A stretch of 56,618 nucleotides of DNA from a virus. This document shows positions 3,958 through 55,521 of this stretch, in pieces. The position numbers were made by a program, and so were the translations under genes. The DNA is taken from IMG/VR virus record IMGVR_UViG_3300044837_000080, positions 1 to 56,618 of that record. One strand, given 5' to 3'. The notes under the pieces were generated by a model. It saw nothing but the letters and a program-made list of their open reading frames with translations. It did not search any database and was not told the DNA's origin. Positions within the stretch are counted from its first letter, which is position 1. Each line of letters opens with the position of its first letter.

Positions 3958-3986
3958 ATTGTCCCCCGAGTGTGACTAGCTGTCAA
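3958..3986 (-). promoter_or_regulatory. Promoter with operator repeat for the leftward small-gene operon
   Basis: On the minus strand -35 TTGACA (3981-3986), 17-nt spacer, -10 GACAAT (3958-3963). The -35 box begins the repeat TTGAC-AGCTA-GTCAC (3972-3986), the same arrangement as at the repressor gene. Confidence 0.7.
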
Positions 3987-4003
3987 CATCCCTAGCGTGG
4001 ACT

Positions 4004-4215
4004 TTGTACCAGGTACCGAGCCGGCCGGAGCCGTACCGCGTGCCGCTGTGGTCCAGGTACCGAGCCGGTACCGCGTACCGGGTACCAACCCCGAGCCGTA
4101 CCGCGTACCGCTGTGGTTTGGTACCGAGCCCGTACCACCGGAGCCGTACCGCGTACCGCTGTGGTTCGGTGCCGGCTCGGTACGTTCCACCGGACTCCGC
4201 TCGGGTACCGGCATC
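4004..4215. repeat. GTACC-rich repeat cluster with three 33-bp copies
   Basis: I count 15 GTAC in about 215 bp, 14 of them GTACC, where one in 256 bp is expected by chance. Three copies of a 33-bp unit starting GAGCCGTACCGCGT lie at about 4028, 4093 and 4141. ORFs across it on both strands look like repeat translations without good starts, so I treat it as non-coding. The same GTACC density occurs inside the DUF2637 and translocase genes. Possible binding array for the translocase (clt-like) or another protein. Confidence 0.6.
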
Positions 4216-4261
4216 ATTTAACGGTATCCATTGACGAGATCCTTAGCCGGATGGTTGCCGA

Positions 4262-4613
4262 GCAACGTTGCCGAGTTACCTAGCCGGATCAGATCACGTT
4301 GCCGATTGACGGTGCCAACCTACTGAACCCCGAGCCGCTCGGTTGCTTGGCAACGTTGCCGAGTTACCAACCTGGACCGAATCACGTAATCCCTTGACGT
4401 TGCCGCTTGACGCAAATCGAGCCGAGCCGGTAACCGAGCAACGTTGCCGAGTTACGAACCTGGATCAGATTACGTTGCCAATTGACGGTACCAATCTACG
4501 AACCCGAATCTAGTTCGGTAACTGAGCAACGGTGCTGAGTTACCGAGCCGGATTCGATCACGTTGCCGATTGACGGTGCCAACCTACGGAACCGAACCCC
4601 GTTCCGTTATCCG
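4262..4613. repeat. Four-unit 88-bp tandem array, iteron-like
   Basis: GCAACGTTGCCGAGTTAC recurs at 4262, 4350, 4438 and (with two changes) 4526, spaced exactly 88 bp. TTGAC recurs at 4306, 4394, 4482 and 4570 with the same period. The unit core GCAACGTTGC is a perfect palindrome. Units are diverged but their length is strictly kept. Partial units flank the array. The region is AT-richer than its surroundings and has no ORF. An exact period in diverged units points to a protein-binding array such as an origin, a partition site or a transfer locus. Confidence 0.75.
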
Positions 4614-4845
4614 GCAACCGAACCTAGATCATTAGTCGGTCCAGCCGGCGTCATTCCGTAATGGCACTAAATAACGGGATCGGATTTGAGATGGAAATCT
4701 GGCAACCAATACGGGGTCTGACCTGGGCAAACTCCTAGCAGAGGGAGACCCTAGGGGCTGTGCCACTTCGGGGGTCCAAGCCGTTAGCGGGCAACTGAGA
4801 GCCATATAGCGGTATCTCACTCTCGGTATCCATTCCGAGGATGAT
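4614..4845. other. Intergenic stretch without recognised gene
   Basis: About 230 bp between the 88-bp array and the first cassette promoter. I see no ORF with a ribosome site on either strand. It holds a decayed fifth repeat unit at the left edge, the near-palindromic CTAGCAGAGGGAGACCCTAG around 4734-4754, and a GGTATC motif near the promoter. Confidence 0.5.
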
Positions 4846-4874
4846 TTGACGGGATCCCTATCGGGGTGTACTTT
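4846..4874 (+). promoter_or_regulatory. Cassette promoter, half-operator type
   Basis: -35 TTGACG (4846-4851), 17-nt spacer, -10 TACTTT (4869-4874). The left operator half TTGACGGGAT is kept, but the right half GTCA is replaced by CCTA. Drives the gene at 4909. Confidence 0.65.
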
Positions 4875-4908
4875 CAGGATCAATAACTCCACAGTGGAAG
4901 GCAGTCAG

Positions 4909-5136
4909 ATGCCGGAGATCGTTACGTATGACTCTGCCGTTGCCGCTCAGTTCCTCATGATGGGGGATCGGGTAGAGCGCAAAGGACGATTCATGATCGT
5001 GAACAACATCCCCGAGCGTGACCACAGCGGCGGCATGGTGAACGTCGCTCTCGTGGATGAGGACACGGGAACCCTGGTTCCCGATCACATCCCCTACGGG
5101 GTCATGATCCCTCTCGGGTACCCCCTCCCCGCGTGA
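4909..5136 (+). CDS. Hypothetical protein (75 aa)
   Basis: The ATG at 4909 follows GTGGAAGGCAG. It lies about 35 nt after the -10 box, so this mRNA has a short leader. The protein (MPEIVTYDSAVAAQFLMMGD at the start) seems to be a small beta-rich fold: VERKGRFMIVNNI, NVALVDEDTGTLV and YGVMIPLGYPL look like strands. No known domain. It is a single-gene cassette between its own promoter and the hairpin at 5142-5166. Confidence 0.72.
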   Translation: MPEIVTYDSAVAAQFLMMGDRVERKGRFMIVNNIPERDHSGGMVNVALVDEDTGTLVPDHIPYGVMIPLGYPLPA

Positions 5137-5141
5137 CCACC

Positions 5142-5166
5142 GCCCCGAGCCGCTACGGCTCGGGGC
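5142..5166 (+). terminator. Cassette terminator
   Basis: An 11-bp stem GCCCCGAGCCG around the loop CTA, 5 nt after the stop. It has no clear T-run, as is common in actinobacteria. Confidence 0.7.
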
Positions 5167-5190
5167 TGTCTCATGTCCAGGGTCCGGCTC

Positions 5191-5226
5191 CCGGAACGGG
5201 AGCCGGAACGGGAGCCGGAACGGGAG
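5191..5226 (+). repeat. Three tandem copies of a 12-bp unit
   Basis: CCGGAACGGGAG is repeated exactly three times between a terminator and the next promoter. Probably a slippage product; it does not encode anything. Confidence 0.7.
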
Positions 5227-5254
5227 CCGGCTCGGAAACTCATCTGGATATCTA

Positions 5255-5283
5255 TTGACGGGATGATTTCACAGGGTGTACTG
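5255..5283 (+). promoter_or_regulatory. Cassette promoter, half-operator type
   Basis: -35 TTGACG (5255-5260) with a 17-18 nt spacer to GTACTG/TACTGT. The left half TTGACGGGAT is present; the right half is GATTT instead of GTCA. The conserved upstream block CGGAAACTCATCTGGAT precedes it. Confidence 0.65.
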
Positions 5284-5321
5284 TCTAGGTGAATGACAAC
5301 TCCACAGTGAGAGGTAACCAG

Positions 5322-5543
5322 ATGTGCGACACCGGAAACCTTACCCCGGAAACTCTCGGAGACATCCAGCGAGTGGAGATCATCTCCGAGAGCGACGCGC
5401 GAACCTCGTGGTTCTTCTGTAGCGTATGGTTCGACGGATCCGAGTCCGGACGGGAATTCGCGCCGGATGGCTCGGGGACCGGGAAAACGATCAGTGCGGC
5501 TCTGGATGATGCCGTGACAGACGCCATGGATAACCAGGGATAG
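5322..5543 (+). CDS. Hypothetical protein (73 aa)
   Basis: Chosen start is ATG 5322, preceded by GAGAGG. An in-frame GTG at 5289 lies at the predicted transcription start and would give 11 more residues from a leaderless mRNA, so it remains an alternative. The product is acidic and mixed alpha/beta (SWFFCSVWFDGSESGREF, then GKTISAALDDAVTDAMD). It resembles small single-domain phage proteins of unknown role. Single-gene cassette. Confidence 0.7.
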   Translation: MCDTGNLTPETLGDIQRVEIISESDARTSWFFCSVWFDGSESGREFAPDGSGTGKTISAALDDAVTDAMDNQG

Positions 5544-5555
5544 ACCTGAGGACAT

Positions 5556-5582
5556 AGCCCCGAGCCGTAGCGGCTCGGGGCT
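5556..5582 (+). terminator. Cassette terminator
   Basis: A 12-bp stem AGCCCCGAGCCG around the loop TAG, 13 nt after the stop. Confidence 0.7.
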
Positions 5583-5620
5583 GTTCCATGTCCAGGCTCG
5601 GAAACTCATCTGGATACCTA

Positions 5621-5649
5621 TTGACGGGATGTCATCCTGGCACTAGATT
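5621..5649 (+). promoter_or_regulatory. Cassette promoter with full operator
   Basis: -35 TTGACG, 17-nt spacer, -10 TAGATT. The repeat TTGAC-GGGAT-GTCAT (5621-5635) spans the -35 box, and the centre also forms the palindrome GGATGTCATCC. The next ATG is 7 nt after the -10 box. Confidence 0.8.
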
Positions 5650-5656
5650 CTAGGTC

Positions 5657-5902
5657 ATGAGCATTAAGGGATTGACGAGCCGGCAACACGCGGCACTGTC
5701 CACAGCGGCTACCCGTTGGGACCGCTCTCTATCTGAGATTGATATGCGCGTAGTTGGACCCCTGATAGATCGGGGACTGGTGGACGTTATGCGTAGTGAA
5801 GTGTCCTACTACAGCCGGCGTAAGGGATGGTGGGTGACACGCCGCGTGATCACGGACGTAAAGATCAATGAATCCGGAACACGAATCCTGAAAGGGGATT
5901 AG
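5657..5902 (+). CDS. Small winged-helix-like protein (81 aa), leaderless
   Basis: The ATG at 5657 lies 8 nt from the end of the -10 box, where transcription should begin. There is no ribosome site, so the mRNA is predicted to be leaderless. The sequence reads like a small winged helix: LTSRQHAALSTAAT, then a VVGPLIDRGLVDV recognition-type helix, then SYYSRRKGWWVTRRVITDV as the wing. It may bind DNA, but this rests on pattern only. It is followed 5 nt later by the next gene of the same cassette. Confidence 0.75.
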   Translation: MSIKGLTSRQHAALSTAATRWDRSLSEIDMRVVGPLIDRGLVDVMRSEVSYYSRRKGWWVTRRVITDVKINESGTRILKGD

Positions 5903-5907
5903 TAATC

Positions 5908-6132
5908 ATGGCGCGTACCAAAGAACCATGGTCGGCACATCTGGTAGGGATGGGAGGTACCCGGCTGAATGACTCCGGAGAGGGATACACCGTGATCTTT
6001 AGTGTTGTCACGGACCGGGAGCCGGATCGGATGATCTACGTGGACATGTCTCCGGAGAGCGCTCGGAACATGGCAGCGGCTCTGCTGGAAGCTGCCGACC
6101 GTACGGAGCGGTACAACGCAAAGAGAACCTGA
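5908..6132 (+). CDS. Hypothetical protein (74 aa)
   Basis: ATG 5908 with ribosome site GAAAGGGGA, 5 nt after the previous stop, so the two genes form one operon. The protein has a beta-rich start (GYTVIFSVVTDREPDRMIYVDM) and a C-terminal helix (SARNMAAALLEAADRTERY). No family recognised. The cassette ends in the hairpin at 6137-6167. Confidence 0.75.
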   Translation: MARTKEPWSAHLVGMGGTRLNDSGEGYTVIFSVVTDREPDRMIYVDMSPESARNMAAALLEAADRTERYNAKRT

Positions 6133-6136
6133 GGAC

Positions 6137-6167
6137 ACAGCCCCGAGCCGCTCCGGCTCGGGGCTGT
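6137..6167 (+). terminator. Cassette terminator
   Basis: A 14-bp stem ACAGCCCCGAGCCG with loop CTC, right after the stop. Confidence 0.75.
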
Positions 6168-6219
6168 TCCATGTCTGGACCCTGTTCGGAAACTCATCTG
6201 GATTTCTTCCCTGGATGTA

Positions 6220-6248
6220 TTGACGGGATGTCATCCTGGCACTAGGTT
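6220..6248 (+). promoter_or_regulatory. Cassette promoter with full operator
   Basis: -35 TTGACG, 17-nt spacer, -10 TAGGTT; repeat TTGAC-GGGAT-GTCAT at 6220-6234. Unlike 5621, about 100 nt of leader precede the gene. Confidence 0.78.
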
Positions 6249-6353
6249 AGGAGTTACAAAAGCACAACGGCACGGAGCACCGACACTCGGAAGTCTCGGG
6301 TGTACGTGAACCAGACAGACCCGAGCCGATAAACTGAACAGGGGAGATGCACA

Positions 6354-6524
6354 GTGCAGATGAGTAACCGACTGCCGTCCGTAGGCCGCGTGGAAGCCCG
6401 TACTCGGGGGACATGGCGGGATGAGGTACGCGGGGACTACGCATCCGGCAAGTCCGGCTACCGCCGGCGCGTACGCCGGATGGAACGCCGGAACGTCCTT
6501 CGGGAGGTGATGGACGAGAGCTAA
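6354..6524 (+). CDS. Small basic protein (56 aa)
   Basis: Short ORF. GTG 6354 is 8 nt after AGGGGAGA; an in-frame ATG at 6360 is the alternative. The product is strongly basic (SGYRRRVRRMERRNVLREV), with about a quarter Arg/Lys and no hydrophobic core. It may bind nucleic acid or another protein. The approximately 100-nt leader between promoter and start is longer than in neighbouring cassettes. It is followed by a perfect 15-bp terminator hairpin, which supports a real gene. Confidence 0.68.
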   Translation: MQMSNRLPSVGRVEARTRGTWRDEVRGDYASGKSGYRRRVRRMERRNVLREVMDES

Positions 6525-6532
6525 CCCCGGAC

Positions 6533-6565
6533 GAGAGCCCCGAGCCGCTACGGCTCGGGGCTCTC
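6533..6565 (+). terminator. Terminator
   Basis: A perfect 15-bp stem GAGAGCCCCGAGCCG with loop CTA, 8 nt after the stop. Confidence 0.78.
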
Positions 6566-6716
6566 CGGCTTTGAGAGCGTCCCTAGCTAGATCCAATCCC
6601 GTACCCATAAGAGAGGTAAGGTTCAGGCGAGTATGAGGCTTACGAGCAAACTGGAAGTCATGGATACGGACACCGGGAGATAGCCCGGAAGTACCTGAAC
6701 CCCGAGAGCTGAGGAC
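6566..6716. other. Short stretch with only a doubtful 16-codon ORF
   Basis: Between two terminators. It holds GAGAGG at 6611 and an ATG at 6633 opening a 16-codon ORF. The longer open frame reading GEYEAYEQTG to YLNPES has no start codon. Possibly a decayed cassette gene whose stem terminator remains. Confidence 0.4.
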
Positions 6717-6747
6717 ACAGCCCCGAGCCGCTCCGGCTCGGGGCTGT
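6717..6747 (+). terminator. Terminator, copy of 6137-6167
   Basis: Same 14-bp stem ACAGCCCCGAGCCG with loop CTC, preceded by the same TGAGGAC. It belongs to a cassette whose gene is no longer clear. Confidence 0.72.
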
Positions 6748-6799
6748 TCCATGTCCGGGCCGTGATCGGAAACTCACCTGGATTACTGCTCGGGATGTA

Positions 6800-6828
6800 T
6801 TGACGGCTTGTCATCCTGGCATTAGATT
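6800..6828 (+). promoter_or_regulatory. Cassette promoter with full operator
   Basis: -35 TTGACG, 17-nt spacer, -10 TAGATT; repeat TTGAC-GGCTT-GTCAT (6800-6814). Confidence 0.78.
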
Positions 6829-6880
6829 AGGGGACACAACAGCACGTCAACCCCGGATCCCCCAAAGCGAGGTGAGTAAG

Positions 6881-6991
6881 ATGGGACAGAAAGGATGCCC
6901 GCATAGTGACAGTGCCGGCGTGTGTCAGAAGTGCGCCGCTCCGAAGTGCCCGTGTTCCGGACCGCACTGTCAAGGCAAGAAAGGGAAGTAA
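6881..6991 (+). CDS. Cys-rich miniprotein (36 aa)
   Basis: ATG 6881 follows GAGGTGAGTAAG. The product has six cysteines and two histidines in 36 residues (C6, C15, C18, C23, C25, C30), including CQKC and CPCSGPHC, and a basic tail GKKGK. It probably binds one or two zinc ions. First of three genes in this cassette. Function unknown. Confidence 0.72.
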   Translation: MGQKGCPHSDSAGVCQKCAAPKCPCSGPHCQGKKGK

Positions 6992-6995
6992 GATC

Positions 6996-7280
6996 ATGAC
7001 ACGTACCGCGCGTTTGCTTCAGCGAGGCAATGAGGGATTTCAGATCGTGGTGGCCGGTGGTCCGGTGTTCCACGGTCGGGAGGATGGCCGGTGGCCGGTC
7101 ACGTACCGTCCCCGCTACTCCACGGACCCCCGTCCGTTCCTTGGATGGGACTCGGGTTTCCGGTACGCCGGTGGGGAGCTGGAAGCCGTCCCCGGTAACT
7201 CGGGGAAGTCGGTGGAGTGGGACCGCGCGGTGTGTCCGGAGTGTGGTAGCTGGCTCCGGCACTGTACGTGTGACGAGTAA
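6996..7280 (+). CDS. Hypothetical protein with C-terminal Cys cluster (94 aa)
   Basis: ATG 6996 is 4 nt after the previous stop, with AAGGGAAG as ribosome site; longer upstream readings overlap the Cys-rich gene. The body is rich in Gly/Arg/Pro and aromatic residues, and the end is CPECGSWLRHCTCDE, a likely zinc knuckle. No family recognised. Second gene of a three-gene cassette. Confidence 0.75.
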   Translation: MTRTARLLQRGNEGFQIVVAGGPVFHGREDGRWPVTYRPRYSTDPRPFLGWDSGFRYAGGELEAVPGNSGKSVEWDRAVCPECGSWLRHCTCDE

Positions 7281-7315
7281 GAACCAGCACACCGACACAA
7301 CGTGAGGAATGCGCC

Positions 7316-7468
7316 ATGAGTAAGGCCAGTGACAACGCCAAGGTAGACGAGCTGAAGGAAGCCGTCCGTAACCGCGATGGTGCCAAAGCGGCGAAGATCG
7401 TGGAAGAGATCGGGAACAGTAACCCGAAGGCTGCCCGCGACTTCCTAGCCGGCCGGTGGGGCAAGTAA
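7316..7468 (+). CDS. Small helical protein (50 aa)
   Basis: Short ORF. ATG 7316 follows GTGAGGAATG. The product is almost wholly helical and Ala/Lys-rich (VDELKEAVRNRDGAKAAKIVEEIG) and ends LAGRWGK. Third gene of the cassette, 12 nt before the terminator arm. Function unknown. Confidence 0.7.
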   Translation: MSKASDNAKVDELKEAVRNRDGAKAAKIVEEIGNSNPKAARDFLAGRWGK

Positions 7469-7479
7469 CCTCCCGAGCG

Positions 7480-7514
7480 CGAGAGCCCCGATCGGATCAC
7501 GGTCGGGGCTCTCG
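7480..7514 (+). terminator. Cassette terminator
   Basis: A 14-bp stem CGAGAGCCCCGATC with one G-T pair and a 7-nt loop. Confidence 0.72.
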
Positions 7515-7569
7515 TCTGTCCAGGCTCCGGCCGGCTCGGAAACCTATCTGGATTCCTTCCCGAGATCTA

Positions 7570-7598
7570 TTGACGGGATGATTTACTGGCACTAGAGT
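7570..7598 (+). promoter_or_regulatory. Cassette promoter, half-operator type
   Basis: -35 TTGACG, 17-nt spacer, -10 TAGAGT. The left half TTGACGGGAT is followed by GATTT, so the right half-site is missing. The ATG is 7 nt after the -10 box. Confidence 0.75.
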
Positions 7599-7605
7599 CT
7601 AGGAC

Positions 7606-7827
7606 ATGAGCAACCGCAAAGAAATCTATTACGCCGGACACATGGTCTTCATTACGCGTAGGTTCCTGAACAAGGAAACCGGCAAGATGCGAGTCCGGGT
7701 AAAGATCACTAACTTTGCGCGTACCGAAGTGGTGTGTGACGAGTACCACGATTTTGACGACATGCATACCGGAGACACCGCGTACTCAAAGCAGATCAAG
7801 CGATACACGAACCTGGGCATGAGCTAG
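7606..7827 (+). CDS. Hypothetical basic protein (73 aa), leaderless
   Basis: ATG 7606 stands where transcription should start (8 nt past the -10 box) and has no ribosome site, the same arrangement as at 5657. The protein is basic with beta-strand character (MVFITRRFLNKETGKMRVRV, TEVVCDEYHDF) and a C-terminal AYSKQIKRYTNLGMS. No family recognised. Its promoter lacks the right half of the operator, so it may be expressed when the other cassettes are repressed. Confidence 0.75.
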   Translation: MSNRKEIYYAGHMVFITRRFLNKETGKMRVRVKITNFARTEVVCDEYHDFDDMHTGDTAYSKQIKRYTNLGMS

Positions 7828-7854
7828 ACCCGGACCTGAAGAGAGGCAGAGATC

Positions 7855-8007
7855 ATGAGTGAAACCGAAGTGACTGTGACCGTGAACCGGCTGGACCTGG
7901 AAGCATTCCTTGACGACATGGCCGCGCGCCGGCTCCCGGACATGACCACAGCGGATGGAACGGACCGCGTACTGTTGGCTCTCCGTGAGACATACATAGG
8001 GGGCTAG
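7855..8007 (+). CDS. Small acidic protein (50 aa)
   Basis: Short ORF. ATG 7855 has ribosome site GAGAGGCAG. It begins MSETEVTVTVNRLDLEAFLD and ends in a helix (DRVLLALRETYIGG). Second gene of the cassette, followed by the hairpin 8018-8052. Function unknown. Confidence 0.7.
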   Translation: MSETEVTVTVNRLDLEAFLDDMAARRLPDMTTADGTDRVLLALRETYIGG

Positions 8008-8017
8008 TTCCCGAGCA

Positions 8018-8052
8018 CGAGAGCCCCGATCGGATCACGGTCAGGGCTCTCG
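8018..8052 (+). terminator. Cassette terminator
   Basis: Near copy of 7480-7514: stem CGAGAGCCCCGATC with two imperfect pairs. Confidence 0.7.
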
Positions 8053-8098
8053 TCTGTCCAGGCTCGGAAAATCTATCTGGATTCCTTCCCGAGATCTA

Positions 8099-8127
8099 TT
8101 GACGGGATGATTTCCTGGCACTAGATT
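8099..8127 (+). promoter_or_regulatory. Cassette promoter, half-operator type
   Basis: -35 TTGACG, 17-nt spacer, -10 TAGATT; left half-site followed by GATTT. Upstream DNA is almost identical to that of the 7570 promoter. Confidence 0.73.
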
Positions 8128-8170
8128 CAGTATCACAACAGCACGCCGGCACACTGAAGGGGATCAGCTC

Positions 8171-8449
8171 ATGAGCGCACATGCCATCGGAACCATTGGA
8201 TTCCAAAGCTTGACGAGCCGGCCGGAGATCGTGACCCCTAACCGGTTCACGGTCACCTACCAGGTTTCCGGATCCACCGAGTGGATTCTCACTGAAGGGG
8301 AGTACACCACGAACAACCCCGAGAGCCGCGCCAATGAGCACGCTCAGAACCTTCGGACCGTGGGAGCTATCAAGACTCGGGTCAACGCGTTCCATGGTGA
8401 AATCGCGCTGTGGTCCCGTGAGGACTACGCGGTCATGCACGAAAGCTGA
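8171..8449 (+). CDS. Hypothetical protein (92 aa)
   Basis: ATG 8171 preceded by GAAGGGGATCAG, with a leader of about 35 nt. The protein looks like a small alpha/beta fold (PNRFTVTYQVSGSTEWILTE, then HAQNLRTVGAIKTRVNAF). No known domain. Single-gene cassette ended by a 16-bp hairpin. Confidence 0.75.
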   Translation: MSAHAIGTIGFQSLTSRPEIVTPNRFTVTYQVSGSTEWILTEGEYTTNNPESRANEHAQNLRTVGAIKTRVNAFHGEIALWSREDYAVMHES

Positions 8450-8458
8450 ACCCCGAGC

Positions 8459-8495
8459 ACGAGAACCCCGAGCCGCTGTGGCTCGGGGTTCTCGT
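8459..8495 (+). terminator. Cassette terminator
   Basis: A perfect 16-bp stem ACGAGAACCCCGAGCC with a 5-nt loop. Confidence 0.78.
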
Positions 8496-8565
8496 CTGTC
8501 CAGGCTCCGGCCGGCTCGGGACACGGCTCGGGGCGGGAATCCATCCAGGTTTCCGGGTCCAGGGG

Positions 8566-8594
8566 TTGACCAGTAGTCACAACTGGTCTACTAT
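8566..8594 (+). promoter_or_regulatory. Promoter with full operator for the DUF932 gene
   Basis: -35 TTGACC, 17-nt spacer, -10 TACTAT. The repeat TTGAC-CAGTA-GTCAC (8566-8580) overlaps a second inverted repeat CCAGT/ACTGG (8570-8574, 8582-8586). Confidence 0.78.
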
Positions 8595-8636: not shown

Positions 8637-9839
8637 ATGTCGGAAGTCCGGAACGTCAATGACCAGTTCAATGCCGAGCGCGTAGCGCAGATGGAACGCG
8701 TGACCGACCGTCTCGCGTACCTGGAAGGGGAAGTGGCGCTCGGGAACATGCGCAAGCGGGATGACGGTCGATTCGAGGTTCTCGGCAACGGTTGGGACCG
8801 TGGCGAGATCTTCGGAGCCAACGGGATGCCGGTATCCGGCCTGGACACCCTATCCAACGGCAAGACGGCCTTCTACTCCAAGGACCTTCCCGCGTGGCAC
8901 GCACTCGGGACTGTGGTCCCCGGTGGACTCCACACCGCCGCTGAGGTTCTCATGGCCGGTGGACTCGCGTACACCGTTGCACAGAAGCCCGTCACGTTCA
9001 CGCCTGAAGGTTCCGCGGAACTGATCACGGTTCCCGGGTCGTTCGTGAACTACCGTACCGACAACGGGCAACCGCTCGGGGTAGTCGGGAAGTTGTACAC
9101 CCCCGTCCAACCCATCCAGGCGTACGGCATGCTGGATGAACTTCTGAACTACGGCATGGTGGCCGAAACCGCCGGATCGTTCAAAGACGGCGCGCGGATG
9201 TTCATCACGGCAAAGATGCCTACTCCGGCAGTCATTGACCCGGACGGCATCGCTGACGAGATTGAGCAGTACATAGCGCTGATCAACTCTCACGATGGAT
9301 CAACCCCGAGCATGGTTCTGGTGACCCCGTGGCGTATCCTCTGCGCGAATACCGCACGATTCGCCATTGCCGGAGCACAGACCAAATGGGCTATCCGGCA
9401 CACCACAAACGTAGCCTCCCGGATGAGTGAAGCGGCAACGTCGCTCGGACTCACACAGTCCTACTACTCAGCTTTTGCCGCTGAGGAAACCGCGCTGGTT
9501 CAGGCGGAATTCAATGGCAAGATGCTGGACAAGCTGATCACTCAGCTTTGGACTCCGGTCAAGGATGAGGACAACAAAACGGCTGCCACAAAGCACGCCA
9601 AGCGGCGCGCGATCATCCACGAGATTTGGGGGATGGAATCCGAGCGCGTAGGGAAGAACGCTTTCGCCGCTGAGAATGCCGTTACCGGGTACATCGATCA
9701 CTACTCGGAACTACGTCCCCGGTCCGCCGCGCTGAAGGGTAACCGTCTCGCGGCTCTCGGGGATGCGGTCATGTCCGAGAGCATGGATGCGATCAAGGAC
9801 CGGACTCACACGCGGCTCATGACCCTGACGAACCGCTAG
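8637..9839 (+). CDS. DUF932 phage/plasmid-like protein (TIGR03299 type)
   Basis: 400 aa; ATG 8637 with GCGAGAGGCAC. Seen: the layout known from the DUF932/TIGR03299 phage and plasmid family, with LPAWHALGTVV near the start, a central NYRTDNGQPLGVVGKLYTPVQ block, and LVTPWRILCANTARFA followed by IRHTTNVASRMSEA. Known: this family is widespread on phages and plasmids; its biochemical role is unsettled. Length and motif order fit a complete member. It has its own operator-controlled promoter and a hairpin 3' end, so it is a stand-alone unit. It probably acts early, but the sequence alone does not show on what. Confidence 0.85.
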   Translation: MSEVRNVNDQFNAERVAQMERVTDRLAYLEGEVALGNMRKRDDGRFEVLGNGWDRGEIFGANGMPVSGLDTLSNGKTAFYSKDLPAWHALGTVVPGGLHTAAEVLMAGGLAYTVAQKPVTFTPEGSAELITVPGSFVNYRTDNGQPLGVVGKLYTPVQPIQAYGMLDELLNYGMVAETAGSFKDGARMFITAKMPTPAVIDPDGIADEIEQYIALINSHDGSTPSMVLVTPWRILCANTARFAIAGAQTKWAIRHTTNVASRMSEAATSLGLTQSYYSAFAAEETALVQAEFNGKMLDKLITQLWTPVKDEDNKTAATKHAKRRAIIHEIWGMESERVGKNAFAAENAVTGYIDHYSELRPRSAALKGNRLAALGDAVMSESMDAIKDRTHTRLMTLTNR

Positions 9840-10303: not shown

Positions 10304-10528
10304 ATGGCAAACGAAAGAGGTTCAATGATCGAGATCTCGGACCGGTTCAATGGGCGCATGATGGCCATGGCTACCGAAACCGGAGTGCTACAGACCGATC
10401 TGATCATCATCGCGGCAAAGGTCCAAGCCACGATCAACGGGGCATCTAACCTCAGCGCTAGTGGGCAAGCTGCACTGAGTGAGGTTCTGTCACTGATCAC
10501 GGACCGGCGTACCGAGCAAGGATTCTGA
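10304..10528 (+). CDS. Hypothetical helical protein (74 aa)
   Basis: The first ATG (10304) lies 7 nt past the -10 box, as in the leaderless genes. An in-frame ATG at 10325 follows GAAAGAGG and would use a normal ribosome site, so either start is possible. The protein is helical throughout (FNGRMMAMATETGVLQTDLI, QAALSEVLSLITDRRTEQ). No family recognised. A hairpin follows the stop. Confidence 0.7.
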   Translation: MANERGSMIEISDRFNGRMMAMATETGVLQTDLIIIAAKVQATINGASNLSASGQAALSEVLSLITDRRTEQGF

Positions 10529-11244: not shown

Positions 11245-11436
11245 GTGTCTGAAGGCCGGAAAGTCAGCAAAGAGGAACGCCGGCAAGCTATCGGCGGTGT
11301 GGTCAACGAGTCCGAGCGCGGACAGTGCGGCTACTGCGGGGACTGGTACGACGTACCGAGCACGGGAGACATGGGAGTCTGCCGAGCGCACGCATGGGCG
11401 CACGTCCACAACACCCTGACGAGTGAGGGTTACTGA
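11245..11436 (+). CDS. Small zinc-binding-like protein (63 aa)
   Basis: GTG 11245 follows GAGGGAGCGCGA, the same spacing as in the twin unit at 10861, so it is preferred over an ATG at 11200 that would sit before the -10 box. Seen: CGYCGDWYDV followed 15 residues later by CRAHAWAH, a CxxC...CxxH pattern typical of small zinc fingers. The N-terminus is charged. Function unknown. Confidence 0.7.
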   Translation: MSEGRKVSKEERRQAIGGVVNESERGQCGYCGDWYDVPSTGDMGVCRAHAWAHVHNTLTSEGY

Positions 11437-11444
11437 GCTGAGCA

Positions 11445-11477
11445 GAGAGCCCCGACCGGTGTCCGGTCGGGGCTCTC
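11445..11477. terminator. Bidirectional terminator
   Basis: A perfect 15-bp stem GAGAGCCCCGACCGG with loop TGT. It lies between the rightward small genes and the converging leftward operon. Confidence 0.78.
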
Positions 11478-11494
11478 GTGTGTTCCGGGCTCGG

Positions 11495-11980
11495 TTACGG
11501 GGTACCGGCCGGCTCTGGATGCGTGCTCGGGGATATGGTCCGGGTCACGGTGTGAGTTGGTCCAGGGACCGCTACCCATTTGGTTACCGTGGGACCGGGG
11601 ACCGGTGTCGGCTTCACAGCTCGCACTGTGACCCTGGTTCTTGGCAGGGTCACGGTAGGACCGGGAGAGAGCACCATGAGTGTACGGACCGAATCAGAGC
11701 CGTCCACCGTTAGTTCAGCGGATGGGGATGCCGAGAGGCTCGGACCAACTAGCCGTACCTCACTCGGGACCCTGAAAACCAGATAGCTACTGATCGCGCA
11801 TACCGTCACCACAAGTCCGGCCACAGCGGCGTACGCGGCTCGGGGTCTACGTCGTGACGGCTCGGGATCCGTGTCCGGCTCGCCCCCTTGCCACGCTCCG
11901 GACTCGTCCCGTGCCAGCATCCCGAAGGCTAGTGTGTCCTCAGGTGGGTTTCCCTTATGTCTGCCAGCGTGCTTGCTCAC
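11495..11980 (-). CDS. Hypothetical single-span membrane protein (161 aa)
   Basis: GTG at 11980 overlaps the stop of the preceding gene (TAGTG) and has GAGAGG upstream; the longer ATG reading from 12049 would overlap that gene. Seen: a charged N-terminal region, one membrane helix at about residues 50-70 (YAAVAGLVVTVCAISSYLVF), then a Thr/Val/Pro-rich outer region (TLPRTRVTVRAVKPTPVPGP). That is the layout of a surface-exposed anchor or lipoprotein-like stalk. Last gene of the leftward operon. A role in superinfection exclusion is possible but not shown. Confidence 0.68.
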   Translation of the reverse strand: MSKHAGRHKGNPPEDTLAFGMLARDESGAWQGGEPDTDPEPSRRRPRAAYAAVAGLVVTVCAISSYLVFRVPSEVRLVGPSLSASPSAELTVDGSDSVRTLMVLSPGPTVTLPRTRVTVRAVKPTPVPGPTVTKWVAVPGPTHTVTRTISPSTHPEPAGTP

Positions 11981-16768: not shown

Positions 16769-16790
16769 GGTGCTCCCTTTGGATCTTCAG

Positions 16791-16820
16791 ATGACAACCA
16801 GTCAGTTTCTACTGTACCAT
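16791..16820 (+). promoter_or_regulatory. Operator and probable promoter of the Cro-like gene
   Basis: Repeat TGAC-AACCA-GTCA (16791-16805 with flanks). ATGACA is a possible -35, with TACCAT 18 nt later as -10. A second inverted repeat CATAC-GAG-GTATG (16819-16831) follows. The site lies between the divergent helicase operon and the Cro-like gene and could control both. Confidence 0.6.
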
Positions 16821-16866: not shown

Positions 16867-17076
16867 GTGAGTACGTACGTGAGACACGGATCCGTGCTCC
16901 GGCGCTACCGGCTCCGGGCCGGCTTAACCCAGCTCAGGCTAGCTACGGAGACCGGGATCCCTGTGAGCGCGGTCCGACAGTACGAACATGGCCGGTGTAT
17001 GCCGAGCGCTATCCGTGAGATCGTGCTCATGCTCGCGCTGGACATCCCGCCAATGATCTTGCTTTGGACCCGGTGA
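16867..17076 (+). CDS. Cro-like XRE helix-turn-helix regulator (69 aa)
   Basis: GTG 16867 with GTGAGGATCCCGA. Seen: almost the whole protein is one XRE/Cro-CI helix-turn-helix: GSVLRRYRLRAGLTQLRLA, TGIPVSAVRQYEHGRCMPSA, IREIVLMLALDI. No dimerisation or cleavage domain follows, which fits a Cro-type rather than a CI-type protein. It is divergent from the helicase operon across an operator-like region. It likely binds the phage operators or its own promoter; which one cannot be told from sequence. Confidence 0.82.
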   Translation: MSTYVRHGSVLRRYRLRAGLTQLRLATETGIPVSAVRQYEHGRCMPSAIREIVLMLALDIPPMILLWTR

Positions 17077-23043: not shown

Positions 23044-23552
23044 AAGTGAAAGCGTCCTTTGAACACATGGGAACGTTCATCGTTCCAGGTGACCCCGAGC
23101 AGGCCGGCAGTAAAAACGGATTCGCTATTCATAGGGGATCCAAAGCAAAAGGCAATAGGGAATTCACGGGACGCGTCGCTGTGGTGGACACGAACGAAAA
23201 GAACCTGAAGGGATGGCGAGCCGCTGTGGGGGAAGCGGTCCGGCCGGACGGTCGGCCCGTGCTCCCCGAGCCGCTGAGTGGTCCCCTAGCGGTCTGGTTT
23301 CGCTTCTCCATAGTCCGGCCTAGGTCTGTGCCTAAAACTCGCCTGTGGCCGTCTGTGCGGCCGGACACGACCAAGTATGTCCGTGGCACTGAAGACGCTT
23401 GTACGGATCACGGGCTGTGGCGTGACGACGCGCTGATCATCTGGCAGTCGGCGAGTAAGGCGTACGTCGGCTCGCATCATCCGGACGGCACTCCGGCCCT
23501 GGACATTCCCGGATGCCAGATCGACGTGTATCGGCTCAGCTCCGGTAGTTGA
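23040..23552 (+). CDS. RusA-like Holliday junction resolvase
   Basis: 170 aa; GTG 23040 with GCGGAGAG. Seen: the RusA pattern, with a start FIVPGDPEQAGSKNGF, then FRFSIVRPRSVPKTRLWP, then RPDTTKYVRGTEDACT with DHGLWRDDALII, where RusA enzymes hold their catalytic Asp residues. Known: RusA cuts four-way DNA junctions, letting a phage resolve recombination or replication intermediates. Last gene of the rightward replication operon; the next gene has its own promoter. Confidence 0.82.
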   Translation: MKVKASFEHMGTFIVPGDPEQAGSKNGFAIHRGSKAKGNREFTGRVAVVDTNEKNLKGWRAAVGEAVRPDGRPVLPEPLSGPLAVWFRFSIVRPRSVPKTRLWPSVRPDTTKYVRGTEDACTDHGLWRDDALIIWQSASKAYVGSHHPDGTPALDIPGCQIDVYRLSSGS

Positions 23553-23577
23553 CAAATCGTCAACTGCGTACCACAGT
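23549..23577 (+). promoter_or_regulatory. Promoter with perfect palindromic operator
   Basis: -35 TTGACA, 17-nt spacer, weak -10 CACAGT. The perfect palindrome GTTGAC-AAATC-GTCAAC at 23548-23564 covers the -35 box and the stop codon of the resolvase gene. Drives the gene at 23612. Confidence 0.7.
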
Positions 23578-23611: not shown

Positions 23612-24055
23612 ATGCCCAAATCGGACACGGTGCGCATTACGGACGGAACCCCTCAGGTTTACATCCCCGATCACGGATGGGTCCGGTATCCGATCACGGC
23701 AGAGAAGCTGATCGCACACGCGCTGGAGAACGGATGGGGAACCGATGACGGTATCCCGGTGCGGCGTGCCGGCTCGGGTGACTTTTTCATCCGGGTACTG
23801 GTAGGGCGGGAGCCCGGATTCCTTCCCGGATCCGATCGGGAGACTCATCCAGACGGGGGATGGTGTGAAGGTCACCACTTCCACATCGTGTGGTTTTTCA
23901 ACCCCGAGACACAGCGGTGGATAGCTAGCAACATCTTCCACCGGTCCACGGGTTTCGACGGGTGGCAATCCCCCGAGTACGTGTCAGCGGCTAGTAAGTG
24001 CATAGGTCGTAACCCTGCCAAGATACCTACTCAGTACGCTGAAGCGCGTAACTGA
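23612..24055 (+). CDS. Hypothetical protein (147 aa)
   Basis: ATG 23612 with AAGGGAAGGTCAAGAG; the reading from 23549 would start inside the promoter. The protein is rich in aromatic residues and beta-strand patterns (PQVYIPDHGWVRYPI, WCEGHHFHIVWFFNPETQRW). CEGHHFHIVWF holds a His-rich patch that could bind metal. No family recognised. Under direct operator control. Confidence 0.73.
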   Translation: MPKSDTVRITDGTPQVYIPDHGWVRYPITAEKLIAHALENGWGTDDGIPVRRAGSGDFFIRVLVGREPGFLPGSDRETHPDGGWCEGHHFHIVWFFNPETQRWIASNIFHRSTGFDGWQSPEYVSAASKCIGRNPAKIPTQYAEARN

Positions 24056-24652: not shown

Positions 24653-24934
24653 TCATCCGGCAGAGTTAGCGGGTTCAATTTTGACAACGTACGTAGAACC
24701 ATCCTCCCGAGTCCGGATCTCACGGAACGGGAAAACGTGCTCATTCAGGTACCTACCAAAGGATTCCGAACCGCCTTCCAAAGCGCGCATGGCCGGCGTG
24801 GTCTCCAGATCGAAAGCGTCAAGGATCTTGACGAACAGACCGAAAGACGGCTTTCGCTTTCCGTTCCTCAGGTAGGACACGTAGCTAGCCGTCCGGCCTA
24901 TGCGCTCCCCGAAAGCCTGATTAGTCATGTTCAT
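24653..24934 (-). CDS. XRE-family repressor, leaderless (93 aa)
   Basis: Start ATG 24934, 7 nt past the -10 box and without ribosome site, so leaderless, like lambda cI made from its maintenance promoter. An upstream in-frame ATG at 24970 lies inside the -35 box and is rejected. Seen: an XRE helix-turn-helix (NQAFGERIGRTASYVSYLRN, GKRKPSFGLFVKILDAFDLE), then a short C-terminal part with FREIRTREDGSTYVVKIEP. The repeat TTGAC-GTGGT-GTCAC sits on its own promoter, which suggests autoregulation. The same repeat occurs at promoters across the window, so this is the best candidate for the phage's master repressor. The Cro-like protein at 16867 is the alternative binder. Confidence 0.83.
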   Translation of the reverse strand: MNMTNQAFGERIGRTASYVSYLRNGKRKPSFGLFVKILDAFDLETTPAMRALEGGSESFGRYLNEHVFPFREIRTREDGSTYVVKIEPANSAG

Positions 24935-30709: not shown

Positions 30710-30723
30710 CTCGGGGATGCCGG

Positions 30724-31053: not shown

Positions 31054-31082
31054 AACCCCGAGCCGGGATCCGGCTCGGGGTT
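31054..31082 (-). terminator. Cassette terminator
   Basis: A 12-bp stem AACCCCGAGCCG with 5-nt loop after the gene ending at 31096. Confidence 0.72.
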
Positions 31083-31095
31083 CGCTCGGGGAAGT

Positions 31096-31437: not shown

Positions 31438-31443
31438 ACCCGT

Positions 31444-31472
31444 AGGCTAATGCCTGGATGACATCCCGTCAA
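31444..31472 (-). promoter_or_regulatory. Leftward cassette promoter with full operator
   Basis: -35 TTGACG (31467-31472), 17-nt spacer, -10 TAGCCT (31444-31449); repeat ATGAC-ATCCC-GTCAA at 31458-31472. Confidence 0.78.
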
Positions 31473-31498
31473 TACATCCCGGTATCTGATCCAATAAG

Positions 31499-31527
31499 AA
31501 AACCCCGAGCCGCTACGGCTCGGGGTT
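31499..31527 (-). terminator. Cassette terminator
   Basis: A 12-bp stem AACCCCGAGCCG with loop CTA after the gene ending at 31542. Confidence 0.75.
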
Positions 31528-31541
31528 CGCTCGGGGAGGGA

Positions 31542-31748
31542 TCAGGTTTCGATGCTCAGGACGGGAGCCGCGCCGGCGTACGTGCCCGCGTAGTCGTTGA
31601 ACAGACCGAGCGCGAGAGCCGGAGAGAGGAACCGGTTATCCGAAGCGGTGTTCCGGAGAGCGTTGAACCGGCGCACGATGTAGGATCCCCTGTCCTGGAT
31701 CAGGGTAACGGTAGTGATGTCCCCGGTAGCCTTCGCAATTTCCCGCAC
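31542..31748 (-). CDS. Small paralogue A (68 aa)
   Basis: GTG 31748 with ACGGAAGGCACAAC, the same leader as paralogue B; the reading from 31844 would start upstream of the promoter. Shares TVTLIQDRGSYIVRR and FNDYAGTYAGAAPVLSIET with the genes at 31897 and, weaker, 32196. Probably a small alpha/beta fold. Function unknown. Promoter at 31786-31814. Confidence 0.73.
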   Translation of the reverse strand: MREIAKATGDITTVTLIQDRGSYIVRRFNALRNTASDNRFLSPALALGLFNDYAGTYAGAAPVLSIET

Positions 31749-31785
31749 GTTGTGCCTTCCGTAGTTCCCGCTTGCCTGTGACTCC

Positions 31786-31814
31786 AGTATATGGCCGGTG
31801 TGACATCCCGTCAA
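31786..31814 (-). promoter_or_regulatory. Leftward promoter, hybrid of the two cassette types
   Basis: -35 TTGACG (31809-31814) as in the leaderless type, -10 TATACT (31786-31791) as in the TAGACA type, 17-nt spacer; repeat GTGAC-ATCCC-GTCAA at 31800-31814. Confidence 0.77.
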
Positions 31815-31853
31815 TACATCTGAATAACCGATCCAAGAAATCATGCAAGCAAA

Positions 31854-31882
31854 GAACCCCGAGCCGTAGCGGCTCGGGGTTC
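31854..31882 (-). terminator. Cassette terminator
   Basis: A 13-bp stem GAACCCCGAGCCG with loop TAG after the gene ending at 31897. Confidence 0.75.
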
Positions 31883-31896
31883 GCTCGGGGGAGGGA

Positions 31897-32146: not shown

Positions 32147-32175
32147 AGTCTGCCCTAGGGATGCCAGGATGTCAA
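32147..32175 (-). promoter_or_regulatory. Leftward promoter with degenerate operator
   Basis: -35 TTGACA (32170-32175), 17-nt spacer, -10 CAGACT (32147-32152). The right half-site reads GGCA instead of GTCA. Confidence 0.65.
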
Positions 32176-32195
32176 CCCCGATAATGATCCCGCTA

Positions 32196-32480: not shown

Positions 32481-32509
32481 AGTATCGCATCCGGTTGACA
32501 GGTAGTCAA
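32481..32509 (-). promoter_or_regulatory. Leftward promoter of the divergent pair
   Basis: -35 TTGACT (32504-32509), 17-nt spacer, -10 GATACT (32481-32486). The perfect palindrome GTTGAC-AGGTA-GTCAAC (32494-32510) holds the -35 boxes of both directions. Confidence 0.73.
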
Positions 32510-32523
32510 CGCATCCCGGTATT
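32495..32523 (+). promoter_or_regulatory. Possible rightward promoter of the divergent pair
   Basis: -35 TTGACA (32495-32500), 17-nt spacer, -10 GGTATT (32518-32523), using the other half of the same palindrome. It would read into the terminase and late genes. Confidence 0.5.
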
Positions 32524-53396: not shown

Positions 53397-53425
53397 ATAC
53401 TGACATCCCGGTGACCTCTTGTCAA
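53397..53425 (-). promoter_or_regulatory. Leftward promoter with full operator
   Basis: -35 TTGACA (53420-53425), 17-nt spacer, -10 CAGTAT (53397-53402); repeat GTGAC-CTCTT-GTCAA at 53411-53425. Confidence 0.75.
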
Positions 53426-53454
53426 CCCATCCAGATATCCCACCTGGAATGACG

Positions 53455-53637: not shown

Positions 53638-53670
53638 GAGAGCCCGGACCCTGATCGGGTCCGGGCTCTC
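53638..53670. terminator. Terminator of the leftward gene at 53721
   Basis: A perfect 14-bp stem GAGAGCCCGGACCC with 5-nt loop TGATC, 50 nt past the stop. Confidence 0.72.
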
Positions 53671-53720
53671 ACTGATCGGCTGTGCCCGTGCGTTGTGCCC
53701 GCACTCGCACCGATCATGTC

Positions 53721-54248
53721 TTACGGGTTGACAACGGCGACCTTACCGGACTTCCCGGAAGTAGCGGAAGCGGTAGCCGCCGGAGCCTGGAAAGGGTCCG
53801 TGACCGGAGCCGGCGCGGCCGGCGCGTCCGAAGCCTGAGCCGAAACGGTAGCGGGGGCATCCTCAGCGGGCTTGTCCGTTGCCAGGAACACAACCCACAC
53901 ATCCGTACCGGGAGTGACCTTGGGGGCAACGGTCTCTCCGGTGGCCTTGACCCTGGTCGGCTTCAGGTCCTTCAGCGGGATGACATCATCGGTGCTAGCG
54001 GTCCCCGGTGACTTGCTCAGAACCTGGACCGTGACACTCCAGCCGTGACGGGTGGCCGCACGACGGATCAGACGCTCGGCATCCGGCGCGTCCTTGGCGC
54101 TCATGGGGAGTGCCTGAGCCTTGCCGGCGCTGTGGGAGAGGGAGAGGTGACCCTCCAGTGGGTTCGTGTTCGGCTGCCGTCCGCGTGCCGACTTCAGGAT
54201 CTCGGCGGGCTCCGGCTTAGCCTCTGCGAGCCAGTTCAGATCTTCCAT
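53721..54248 (-). CDS. Hypothetical protein with Ala/Pro-rich tail (175 aa)
   Basis: ATG 54248 with the strong site AACGGAGGAACG. Seen: ordered N-terminal part (MEDLNWLAEAKPEPAEILKS, APDAERLIRRAATRHGWSVT, VQVLSKSPG) and a long Ala/Pro/Thr-rich disordered tail ending SGKSGKVAVVNP. The N-terminal part may fold as a small alpha/beta domain. Abundant-protein features (good ribosome site, separate transcription unit) suggest strong expression. Function unknown. Confidence 0.73.
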   Translation of the reverse strand: MEDLNWLAEAKPEPAEILKSARGRQPNTNPLEGHLSLSHSAGKAQALPMSAKDAPDAERLIRRAATRHGWSVTVQVLSKSPGTASTDDVIPLKDLKPTRVKATGETVAPKVTPGTDVWVVFLATDKPAEDAPATVSAQASDAPAAPAPVTDPFQAPAATASATSGKSGKVAVVNP

Positions 54249-54315
54249 GATTCGTTCCTCCGTTTGTACCGCTGATTTGACTGCCTAGTTCGATTACCTG
54301 AACAGTACCCCATGA

Positions 54316-54978
54316 TTAGACCTTAGGCAACACCGTGCCGACTAGTTCAGCGATGATGCCCACTACGAACACCGGAACCATCACCCAACGCTCAAACGGT
54401 CCGTTCGTCCTGAACAAACCTAGTTTGAAATTACGCTGATCAACCGGCCAGAGGATCGGGCATCCCTGAAGAGTGACCACGTCCCCGAGCACATGCACGA
54501 GGCACCCGAGTACCAGCGCCGGCGGTACGATCCCGAGCGGTACGTGTGTGAAGGACACGATCCAGATCACTACCGGGATAGGTGCCAGATCATCCAGCCA
54601 TCCCGGTATCCCGAGTAGCCGAATCGGTCCAGCGAACGTAAGTACCATCACGCCGCACAGGAACACCTGAGCCATGAAGCCGGTCCGGTACGTGACTGCC
54701 GTCTGTGCTAGTACCCCGAGCACAGCGATACCGAGAATCGAGTGTGTACCTCTCCGGTGTCCCCCGGTAAGAGCGCTCATGATCCAACAGAATGCGCGCG
54801 TGATCGGTCCGAAGGAATTGGACACCGTTGATCTAGGGTGATCAATGTCCGGGAGGAGTGCCGCTCCGGTACAGACGGCTACGCCGGCACACGCTTCAGG
54901 TACCGGCATGTGTACCAGGTACGCGGCAACACCGATCCCCACAGCGGCTCCCGAGAGCGCGTGTGATCTCCCCATCAT
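54316..54978 (-). CDS. YdjM/DUF457-like membrane-bound metal-dependent hydrolase (220 aa)
   Basis: ATG 54978 overlaps the upstream stop (ATGA). Seen: MMGRSHALSGAAVGIGVAAY with the first His, LLPDIDHPRSTVSNSFGPIT with an Asp-x-Asp-His, GGHRRGTHSILG with the next His set, and a later HVLGDVVT; five to six membrane helices. These are the metal-binding landmarks of the YdjM family (LexA-controlled membrane hydrolases in E. coli). Found on several actinophages; the substrate is unknown. It may alter the host envelope in the prophage state. Confidence 0.82.
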   Translation of the reverse strand: MMGRSHALSGAAVGIGVAAYLVHMPVPEACAGVAVCTGAALLPDIDHPRSTVSNSFGPITRAFCWIMSALTGGHRRGTHSILGIAVLGVLAQTAVTYRTGFMAQVFLCGVMVLTFAGPIRLLGIPGWLDDLAPIPVVIWIVSFTHVPLGIVPPALVLGCLVHVLGDVVTLQGCPILWPVDQRNFKLGLFRTNGPFERWVMVPVFVVGIIAELVGTVLPKV

Positions 54979-55406
54979 GGGAGCGTCATCGGTTCCAGTG
55001 ACCAGAACAGGATCACAGCCGGAGTGTCTTCAGGCATCCCCATGTCCACCAGGACTACCGATCTCAGGTGATCTAGGATCTCCGCTCGGCTCCGGGAGGA
55101 TGTCTCCGCAATGGGCATGACGTAGTTACGCGTAACGGTCTGAGTATCCATGCCGGTATGGCTGTACTGGAGAGTGATCACCGCGTGGTACTCGGTCACG
55201 GGAACCGCGTACCTGATCTCACCACGTGCCACCCTTCCCGCCCATTCCAGGATGATGCCTTCTACGGGACGTTCATCCCCCGAGAGACCAGGCATGAGAT
55301 CGAGTAGGCCGCCTACCAGACGGTTATACCGTTTTTGTACCTCCCTAAGTTCCACTAGTTCCTGTGCCTGGTACTCGATTCGTGAATCTCTGCCGTCCGG
55401 TGCCAT
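54975..55406 (-). CDS. Hypothetical protein (143 aa)
   Basis: ATG 55406 with ACGGAGAGCAC. Seen: a long N-terminal helix (EYQAQELVELREVQKRYNRL), then an alpha/beta part (RYAVPVTEYHAVITLQYSHT, SRSRAEILDHLRSVVLVDMG). A perfect palindrome (55421-55437) lies directly upstream of the ribosome site. First gene of a leftward pair with the YdjM-like protein. Confidence 0.72.
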   Translation of the reverse strand: MAPDGRDSRIEYQAQELVELREVQKRYNRLVGGLLDLMPGLSGDERPVEGIILEWAGRVARGEIRYAVPVTEYHAVITLQYSHTGMDTQTVTRNYVMPIAETSSRSRAEILDHLRSVVLVDMGMPEDTPAVILFWSLEPMTLP

Positions 55407-55420
55407 GTGCTCTCCGTTCC

Positions 55421-55437
55421 GGTTCCGAATCGGAACC
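55421..55437 (-). promoter_or_regulatory. Perfect 17-bp palindrome before the leftward pair
   Basis: GGTTCCGA-A-TCGGAACC, about 15 nt upstream of the ATG at 55406. A second inverted repeat, TACCACT/AGTGGTA (55459-55465, 55475-55481), lies further up. They differ from the TTGAC operator, so another regulator may act here. Confidence 0.6.
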
Positions 55438-55492
55438 TACTTACGTTCCCTTGATCGTTACCACTCTGGTACACAGTGGTACGCATCTAAGC

Positions 55493-55521
55493 TTGACAGT
55501 TAGTCAGCGGTACGTCAAGCT
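55493..55521 (+). promoter_or_regulatory. Rightward promoter with operator for the transfer-like operon
   Basis: -35 TTGACA (55493-55498), 17-nt spacer, weak -10 CAAGCT (55516-55521). Operator TTGAC-AGTTA-GTCAG (55493-55507) lies inside a wider repeat AAGCTTGAC/GTCAAGCTT (55489-55497, 55514-55522). The ATG follows 7 nt later. Confidence 0.62.

Follow-up and report, generated by a model that had tools for sequence, protein, structure and literature searches.

Dispersed putative palindromic operators over actinophage promoters, with a small XRE protein as their candidate repressor

The stretch analysed here (the window) is IMG/VR virus record IMGVR_UViG_3300044837_000080 over its full 56,618 nucleotides (nt), which carries, dispersed over both strands and mostly outside predicted genes, copies of the inverted repeat TTGAC-N5-GTCA, together with genes for two small helix-turn-helix (HTH) proteins, here termed XRE-1 and XRE-2. 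An earlier note on this sequence had proposed that one phage regulator, the XRE protein encoded at 24653-24934, acts through these repeats at many dispersed promoters. The two genes and the putative operators are listed below; L001, L002, and L003 are related viral contigs.

24653-24934, minus strand: XRE-1, 93 amino acids, the proposed repressor; HTH_3 domain, predicted leaderless start, homologues in L001-L003 and in isolated phages
16867-17076, plus strand: XRE-2, 69 amino acids, the 'Cro-like' gene heading the DNA polymerase/primase gene run; HTH_3, E 4.5e-9
3971-3987, minus strand: operator and promoter of the leftward small-gene run 3929-2872; weak -10 GACAAT at 17 nt
5620-5636, plus strand: operator/promoter TTGACGGGATGTCA; -10 TAGATT at 17 nt
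6219-6235, plus strand: operator/promoter; -10 TAGGTT at 17 nt
6799-6815, plus strand: operator/promoter; -10 TAGATT at 17 nt
8565-8581, plus strand: operator/promoter of the DUF932 gene 8637-9839; -10 TACTAT at 17 nt
16790-16806, plus strand: operator core TGACAACCAGTCA, preceding XRE-2; counterparts at L002:6653 and L003:2006
23548-23564, plus strand: operator, perfect 17-bp palindrome, preceding 23612-24055; -10 CACAGT at 17 nt; counterparts in L001, L002, and L003
24956-24970, minus strand: operator on the -35 of the XRE-1 promoter, TTGACGTGGTGTCA; -10 CATACT at 18 nt, then ATG after 6 nt
29737-29753, minus strand: degenerate operator (TGAC-N5-GTCT), preceding 29587-29297; L001, L002, and L003 have an exact site at this position
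30093-30109, minus strand: operator/promoter; -10 TAGTCT at 17 nt
30625-30641, minus strand: operator/promoter; -10 TAGTCT at 17 nt
31000-31014, minus strand: degenerate operator TGAT-N5-GTCT with two mismatches, in promoter cassette repeat D2
31457-31473, minus strand: operator/promoter; -10 TAGCCT at 17 nt
31799-31815, minus strand: operator/promoter; -10 TATACT at 17 nt
32160-32176, minus strand: degenerate operator TTGACATCCTGGCA
32494-32510, minus strand: operator, perfect 17-bp palindrome; -10 GATACT at 17 nt on that strand
34441-34453, no strand assigned: TGAC-N5-GTCA of uncertain status, within the 3' end of the terminase gene; relatives have similar sites there
53410-53426, minus strand: operator preceding 53390-53199, without a clear -10
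55492-55508, plus strand: operator preceding 55528-55806, without a clear -10

An exact scan of the whole 56.6-kb window for TTGAC-N5-GTCA returned 14 distinct places (16 strand-wise matches), compared with a mean of 0.46 and a maximum of 3 in 100 dinucleotide shuffles, which confirms the observation of the earlier note. The shorter core TGAC-N5-GTCA occurs at 16 places, and a scan of spacers from 0 to 13 nt revealed enrichment at 5 nt only, every other length (0-4 and 6-13) giving 0-3 matches. By our own gene calls, under which 21.5% of the window is intergenic, 15 of the 16 core sites lie outside predicted genes (binomial p = 1.3e-9); an equal rate inside genes and at promoters, which would have spoken against the proposal, was thus not observed. 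Since seven sites belong to one family of duplicated promoter cassettes, the 14 places are not all independent; the remaining sites have unrelated spacers and flanks.

The sites listed in the earlier note were all found again, with coordinates correct to within 1 nt, and both of its perfect 17-bp palindromes (23548-23564 and 32494-32510) were confirmed. Its TTGAC arm is present at every listed site except that at 16791, which holds TGAC-N5-GTCA only (GATGACaaccaGTCAGT), and its list had overlooked the exact core site within the terminase gene, at 34441-34453. The three degenerate forms differ in quality, those at 29738 and 32161 having one mismatch in the eight arm bases and that at 31000 having two. 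A -10 box at 17-18 nt, previously ascribed to nearly all sites, is better ascribed to most: about 10 of the 14 have a clear one (TAnnnT or CAnnnT), two have a weaker one (GATACT, GACAAT), and no convincing one was seen at 53411 or 55493. As for the terminase site, it may owe its presence to a conserved D-x-Q-S peptide and not to regulation. Separately, L010, the contig of L003, carries two operators nearly back to back at 10369-10395, again at the 3' end of the terminase gene.

When the sites of the window, its relatives, and the isolated phages described below were pooled (69 oriented sites), the TTGACN hexamer was followed at 17 or 18 nt by a T[AT]nnnT core in 40, compared with a mean of 0.9 at other spacings. 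Judging from this spacing, the operator would span roughly -36 to -22, a placement that is expected to block RNA polymerase and not to aid it. The predicted targets comprise the replication gene run behind XRE-2, XRE-1 itself, the DUF932 gene, and numerous small accessory genes arranged in terminator-promoter-gene cassettes; no operator sites accompany the structural and lysis genes at 35-53 kb. Between single-gene cassettes, each with its own promoter, lie more than 12 near-identical terminator-like hairpins (CCCCGAGCC...GGCTCGGGG), at 5129-8499, 11434-11503, and 29781-31890.

A primase query against IMG/VR viral contigs identified L001-L003, at 53-56% identity, and comparison with these relatives revealed sites at the same promoters: those of XRE-1, the gene after RusA, XRE-2 (not present in the partial contig L001), and the gene at 29.3 kb. 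Across orthologous sites of the window and L001-L003, the arms are invariant (144 of 144 positions identical), and identity drops to 31 of 90 positions (34%) in the spacer and to 264 of 720 (37%) in the flanks. In three further, more distant contigs (L004-L006), whose replication genes are related at 34-45%, XRE-1 had no match and the sites were not clearly in excess. Megablast against the phage collection found no close DNA relative of the window, and XRE-1 as a single-sequence query found no relative among viral contigs. Alignments of the primase or of XRE-1 had no match in the sampled bacterial genomes, and therefore neither a host nor a prophage was identified.

XRE-1 matches Pfam HTH_3 (PF01381) with an E value of 2.7e-6 and 27.7 bits against a cut-off of 23, which places it among the XRE/Cro-CI HTH proteins; the match begins at profile position 9, and the complete five-helix domain including helix 1 is not present. 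In L001, the short N-terminus is real because a stop codon sits directly before the start codon, and the same short N-terminus is found in several homologues. The AlphaFold model has confident helices, with a predicted local distance difference test (pLDDT) score of 82 overall and above 90 over residues 11-60, and PDB searches by sequence and by fold returned generic XRE matches only. The promoter of XRE-1 has the -10 CATACT in the window, L001, L002, and L003, with the ATG 6-7 nt beyond it, and the mRNA should therefore be leaderless.

Homologues of XRE-1, ranging from 77 to 101 amino acids, were found in Streptomyces Hiyaavirus and in Microbacterium phages, which in turn led to others in phages of Micrococcus, Curtobacterium, and Arthrobacter. 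Microbacterium and Micrococcus phages with a homologue carry 5-10 sites per 40-kb genome. Counts of TGAC-N5-GTCA reach 10 in Theresita, 10 in Olihed, 8 in Milani, 6 in Goodman, 4 in Joann, 3 in Parvaparticeps, and 2 in HunterDalle, where 0.8-0.9 are expected, and TTGAC-N5-GTCA occurs at 8 places in Sucha, 6 in FireCastle, 5 in Jera, 3 in Huntingdon, and 1 in BigMack. These sites are intergenic in 10 of 10 cases in Olihed and in 7 of 8 in Milani. Eight control actinophages (463 kb in total) contained no TTGAC-N5-GTCA at all, and whole-genome searches of the same eight with the Milani protein and with a window-family profile found no XRE-1 homologue, while recovering every positive genome that was searched alongside. 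Moreover, an exact or one-mismatch operator lies on the homologue's own promoter, with the start codon 6-8 nt past the -10, in the window, L001-L003, Milani, Goodman, Theresita, Olihed, and Parvaparticeps. The site seen by the earlier note at the repressor promoter is thus conserved, and the regulator carries an operator at its own promoter, as autoregulation requires.

The strongest evidence for the XRE protein as the binder comes from Hiyaavirus, in which operator and protein appear to have changed together. Hiyaa, Galactica, and Keanu have an XRE-1 homologue and only 1-2 TGAC sites per 81-83 kb. The promoter of their homologue instead bears ACTaGCG-N5-CGCaAGT, a palindrome of the same geometry (TTGCG-N5-CGCAA). 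The site set predicted from this single promoter, TTGCG-N5-CGCA, occurs at 13 places in Hiyaa, 14 in Galactica, and 8 in Keanu, compared with 0-1 in ten other phages; a -10 again follows at 17-18 nt, and 10 of the 13 sites in Hiyaa fall in gaps between annotated genes. A blind count of overrepresented 4-bp palindromes in Hiyaa did not reveal this operator, which was found via the XRE promoter. As a separate observation, the XRE promoter region of Arthrobacter phage Joann (L019), upstream of 21381, contains CTTGC-N7-GCAAG, which resembles the Hiyaa arms, and the few other sites of Joann are of the TGAC type.

The excess of the sites, their intergenic promoter position, their conservation, their co-occurrence with the protein, and the matched change in Hiyaavirus are all observed at the level of sequence, and together they make it quite probable that the window sites are operators of XRE-1, a small phage-encoded XRE repressor, much as the earlier note had supposed for the protein at 24653-24934. 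We infer that an XRE-1 dimer would read the palindrome through its TTGAC/GTCAA arms, leaving the 5-bp spacer free. The left arm would double as the -35 hexamer of a promoter of the host sigma-70 type, and the operator centre would lie inside the -35/-10 spacer, where bound XRE-1 would block RNA polymerase. Upon infection, the host polymerase would fire strong early promoters, that of XRE-1 among them, and the leaderless XRE-1 mRNA would be translated immediately, such that rising XRE-1 would close the early and accessory genes as well as its own gene by negative feedback. As its likeliest role, we therefore propose that XRE-1, under its own control, switches off early and accessory genes in the course of lytic growth.

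Several points weigh against this interpretation. The direction of regulation is deduced from site position alone, a good -10 is not present at every site, and the control set is small, comprising eight genomes without phylogenetic matching. In Arthrobacter phages, a homologue is accompanied by no more than 1-4 sites, and no clear site is present at the annotated regulator start of Joann or HunterDalle. In addition, four cassette promoters of the same family (5255, 7570, 8099, and 4846) lack the right operator arm and are predicted to escape the repressor; three of these sister promoters are given here.

5255-5283, plus strand: sister promoter without operator, TTGACGGGATGATTT...TACTGT
7570-7598, plus strand: sister promoter without operator, TTGACGGGATGATTT...TAGAGT
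8099-8127, plus strand: sister promoter without operator, TTGACGGGATGATTT...TAGATT

A further point on the same side is XRE-2, a second HTH protein for which these sites could also be targets within the lineage of the window. The Cro-like gene with a site in front, as described by the earlier note, does exist at 16867-17076 and encodes a standard HTH_3 protein of 69 amino acids with homologues in L002 and L003, and the site at its promoter is conserved in the window, L002, and L003. XRE-2 could accordingly be the main binder in place of XRE-1, or the two could share operators in the manner of a CI/Cro pair. Yet no homologue of XRE-2 was detectable in Milani, Goodman, Theresita, and Olihed, phages of Microbacterium and Micrococcus that combine sites with an XRE-1 homologue, and the partial contig L001 likewise has sites without XRE-2, which renders a leading or shared role for XRE-2 unlikely.

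The earlier note had placed the shut-down in the lysogen, which would make XRE-1 the immunity repressor of a prophage persisting in an integrated or plasmid-like state, as in L5 or phiC31. Many dispersed operators do recall temperate actinophage systems, the FtsK/SpoIIIE and DUF2637 proteins recall actinomycete plasmids, and the genes at 24.9 kb are arranged divergently. However, Pfam PF00589, PF00239, and PF13614 had no match in the window, and no tyrosine integrase, serine (resolvase-type) recombinase, or ParA was found, so that the integration or partition functions expected beside a temperate immunity repressor were not detected in this contig, whose ends overlap. Furthermore, Hiyaa also carries FtsK, the sampled bacterial genomes contained no XRE-1 homologue, and a lytic lifestyle is described for phages that share the regulon, namely Microbacterium cluster EJ, without temperate features (PMC7302621), and Arthrobacter cluster AK (PMC11468179). 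Classical lysogeny is thus a doubtful setting for XRE-1, and that part of the earlier proposal was not borne out.

Regarding the organization of the window itself, the DUF2637 protein adjoins the FtsK/SpoIIIE translocase at 2-2732 as a plasmid-like pair, and an FtsK translocase is annotated in Hiyaa too. Two pieces of overlap link the window ends, one of 1-300 with 55890-56189 at 93% and one of 624-741 with an identical 56501-56618; an exact terminal repeat as a single block was not found. Because of this overlap, the contig is probably near complete and probably closes into a circle of about 55.9 kb whose overlap is polymorphic, although the record is not listed with end repeats. An 88-bp unit is repeated in tandem (3.8 copies) in a gene-poor stretch at 4260-4593, a possible replication origin or partition site.

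Binding by the host regulator BldD, through which the phage would read the cyclic di-GMP (c-di-GMP) state of its host, was also weighed. TGAC-N5-GTCA is an exact subset of the BldD box TNAC-N5-GTNA (PMC4151990), which every core site of the window fits. BldD is likewise of the XRE type and its half-sites have the same spacing, and it differs from XRE-1 in being a host protein with a c-di-GMP-binding C-terminal domain (PMC4151990); a PDB sequence search with the 93-residue XRE-1 did not retrieve it. The operator, in contrast, accompanies the phage XRE gene and that gene's own promoter. BldD is reported throughout sporulating actinomycetes, whereas the sites are commonest in phages of Microbacterium and Micrococcus, hosts that are not known to sporulate. 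In Streptomyces Hiyaavirus, whose host does have BldD, there is no TGAC excess, and TTGCG-N5-CGCAA falls outside the BldD box. BldD is therefore a very improbable binder and was set aside, as the Hiyaavirus operators do not fit its box.

That the palindrome is simply a strong promoter consensus or a set of duplicated cassettes, without operator function, is scarcely credible: the left arm is indeed the -35 hexamer and seven window copies duplicate one cassette, but the sister promoters retain TTGACGGGAT and the -10 without GTCA, so the right arm is unnecessary for the promoter, and the arms are invariant among relatives with variable flanks, absent from the eight control actinophages, and switched to TTGCG/CGCAA in another genus with unchanged geometry.

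Among known systems, phiC31 has one repressor with many dispersed palindromic sites at early promoters, and is a temperate phage with an integrase and a long repressor. The XRE-1 system resembles it in the use of one phage repressor at many palindromic sites over actinophage early promoters, and differs in its protein of 77-101 amino acids, its phages without integrase, and an operator arm that is itself the -35 box. The stoperators of L5 and other cluster A phages similarly form a genome-wide site set for a single repressor, but are asymmetric, transcription-oriented, located in and between genes, bound by a monomer, and stop elongation (PMC9283540, PMC6550527), whereas the window sites are palindromes over promoters and almost all intergenic. 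Many short intergenic inverted repeats also occur in lytic or non-temperate actinophages without known lysogeny, TGTTCGG-N3-CCGAACA in cluster O (PMC4351075) and GATCAACC-N2-GGTTGATC in cluster EG (PMC7302621), which differ in sequence and spacing and have no regulator or function assigned. Aca proteins are small HTH autorepressors that bind an inverted repeat inside the core promoter of early phage anti-CRISPR operons (PMC9410906); they control one operon per phage, compared with up to about 15 promoters in the window, where a link to anti-CRISPR is not evident. The restriction-modification controller proteins C.BclI, C.AhdI, and C.Kpn2I, also small XRE autoregulators, are among the nearest folds with weak matches (E > 0.09), but no restriction-modification genes are tied to XRE-1.

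The open-licence literature yielded no previous account of these sites or phages, and the description of cluster EJ mentions no such repeats (PMC7302621). From the sequences compared here, we lean towards the view that lytic actinophages of several genera possess a previously undescribed regulatory layer, in which an XRE repressor lacking helix 1 would be expressed from a leaderless, autoregulated mRNA and its operator would be merged with the -35 box at almost every early promoter, with arms that can be swapped as a set (TTGAC to TTGCG) at all promoters while the geometry is kept. Such a layer would turn off early genes genome-wide without lysogeny, and superinfecting phages of the same operator type could be denied early expression.

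For years, lytic actinophages have been known to carry inverted repeats between genes, without a function or a binder (PMC4351075, PMC7302621), and a protein-operator pair can here be proposed for one such set. The phages concerned are isolated, sequenced, and easy to grow, making early-gene timing directly testable, and their natural variants form a series along which the DNA specificity of a very small HTH protein can be traced. More broadly, these comparisons suggest that a repressor with many operators need not imply a temperate phage, which would be useful when sorting lytic from temperate phages by sequence.

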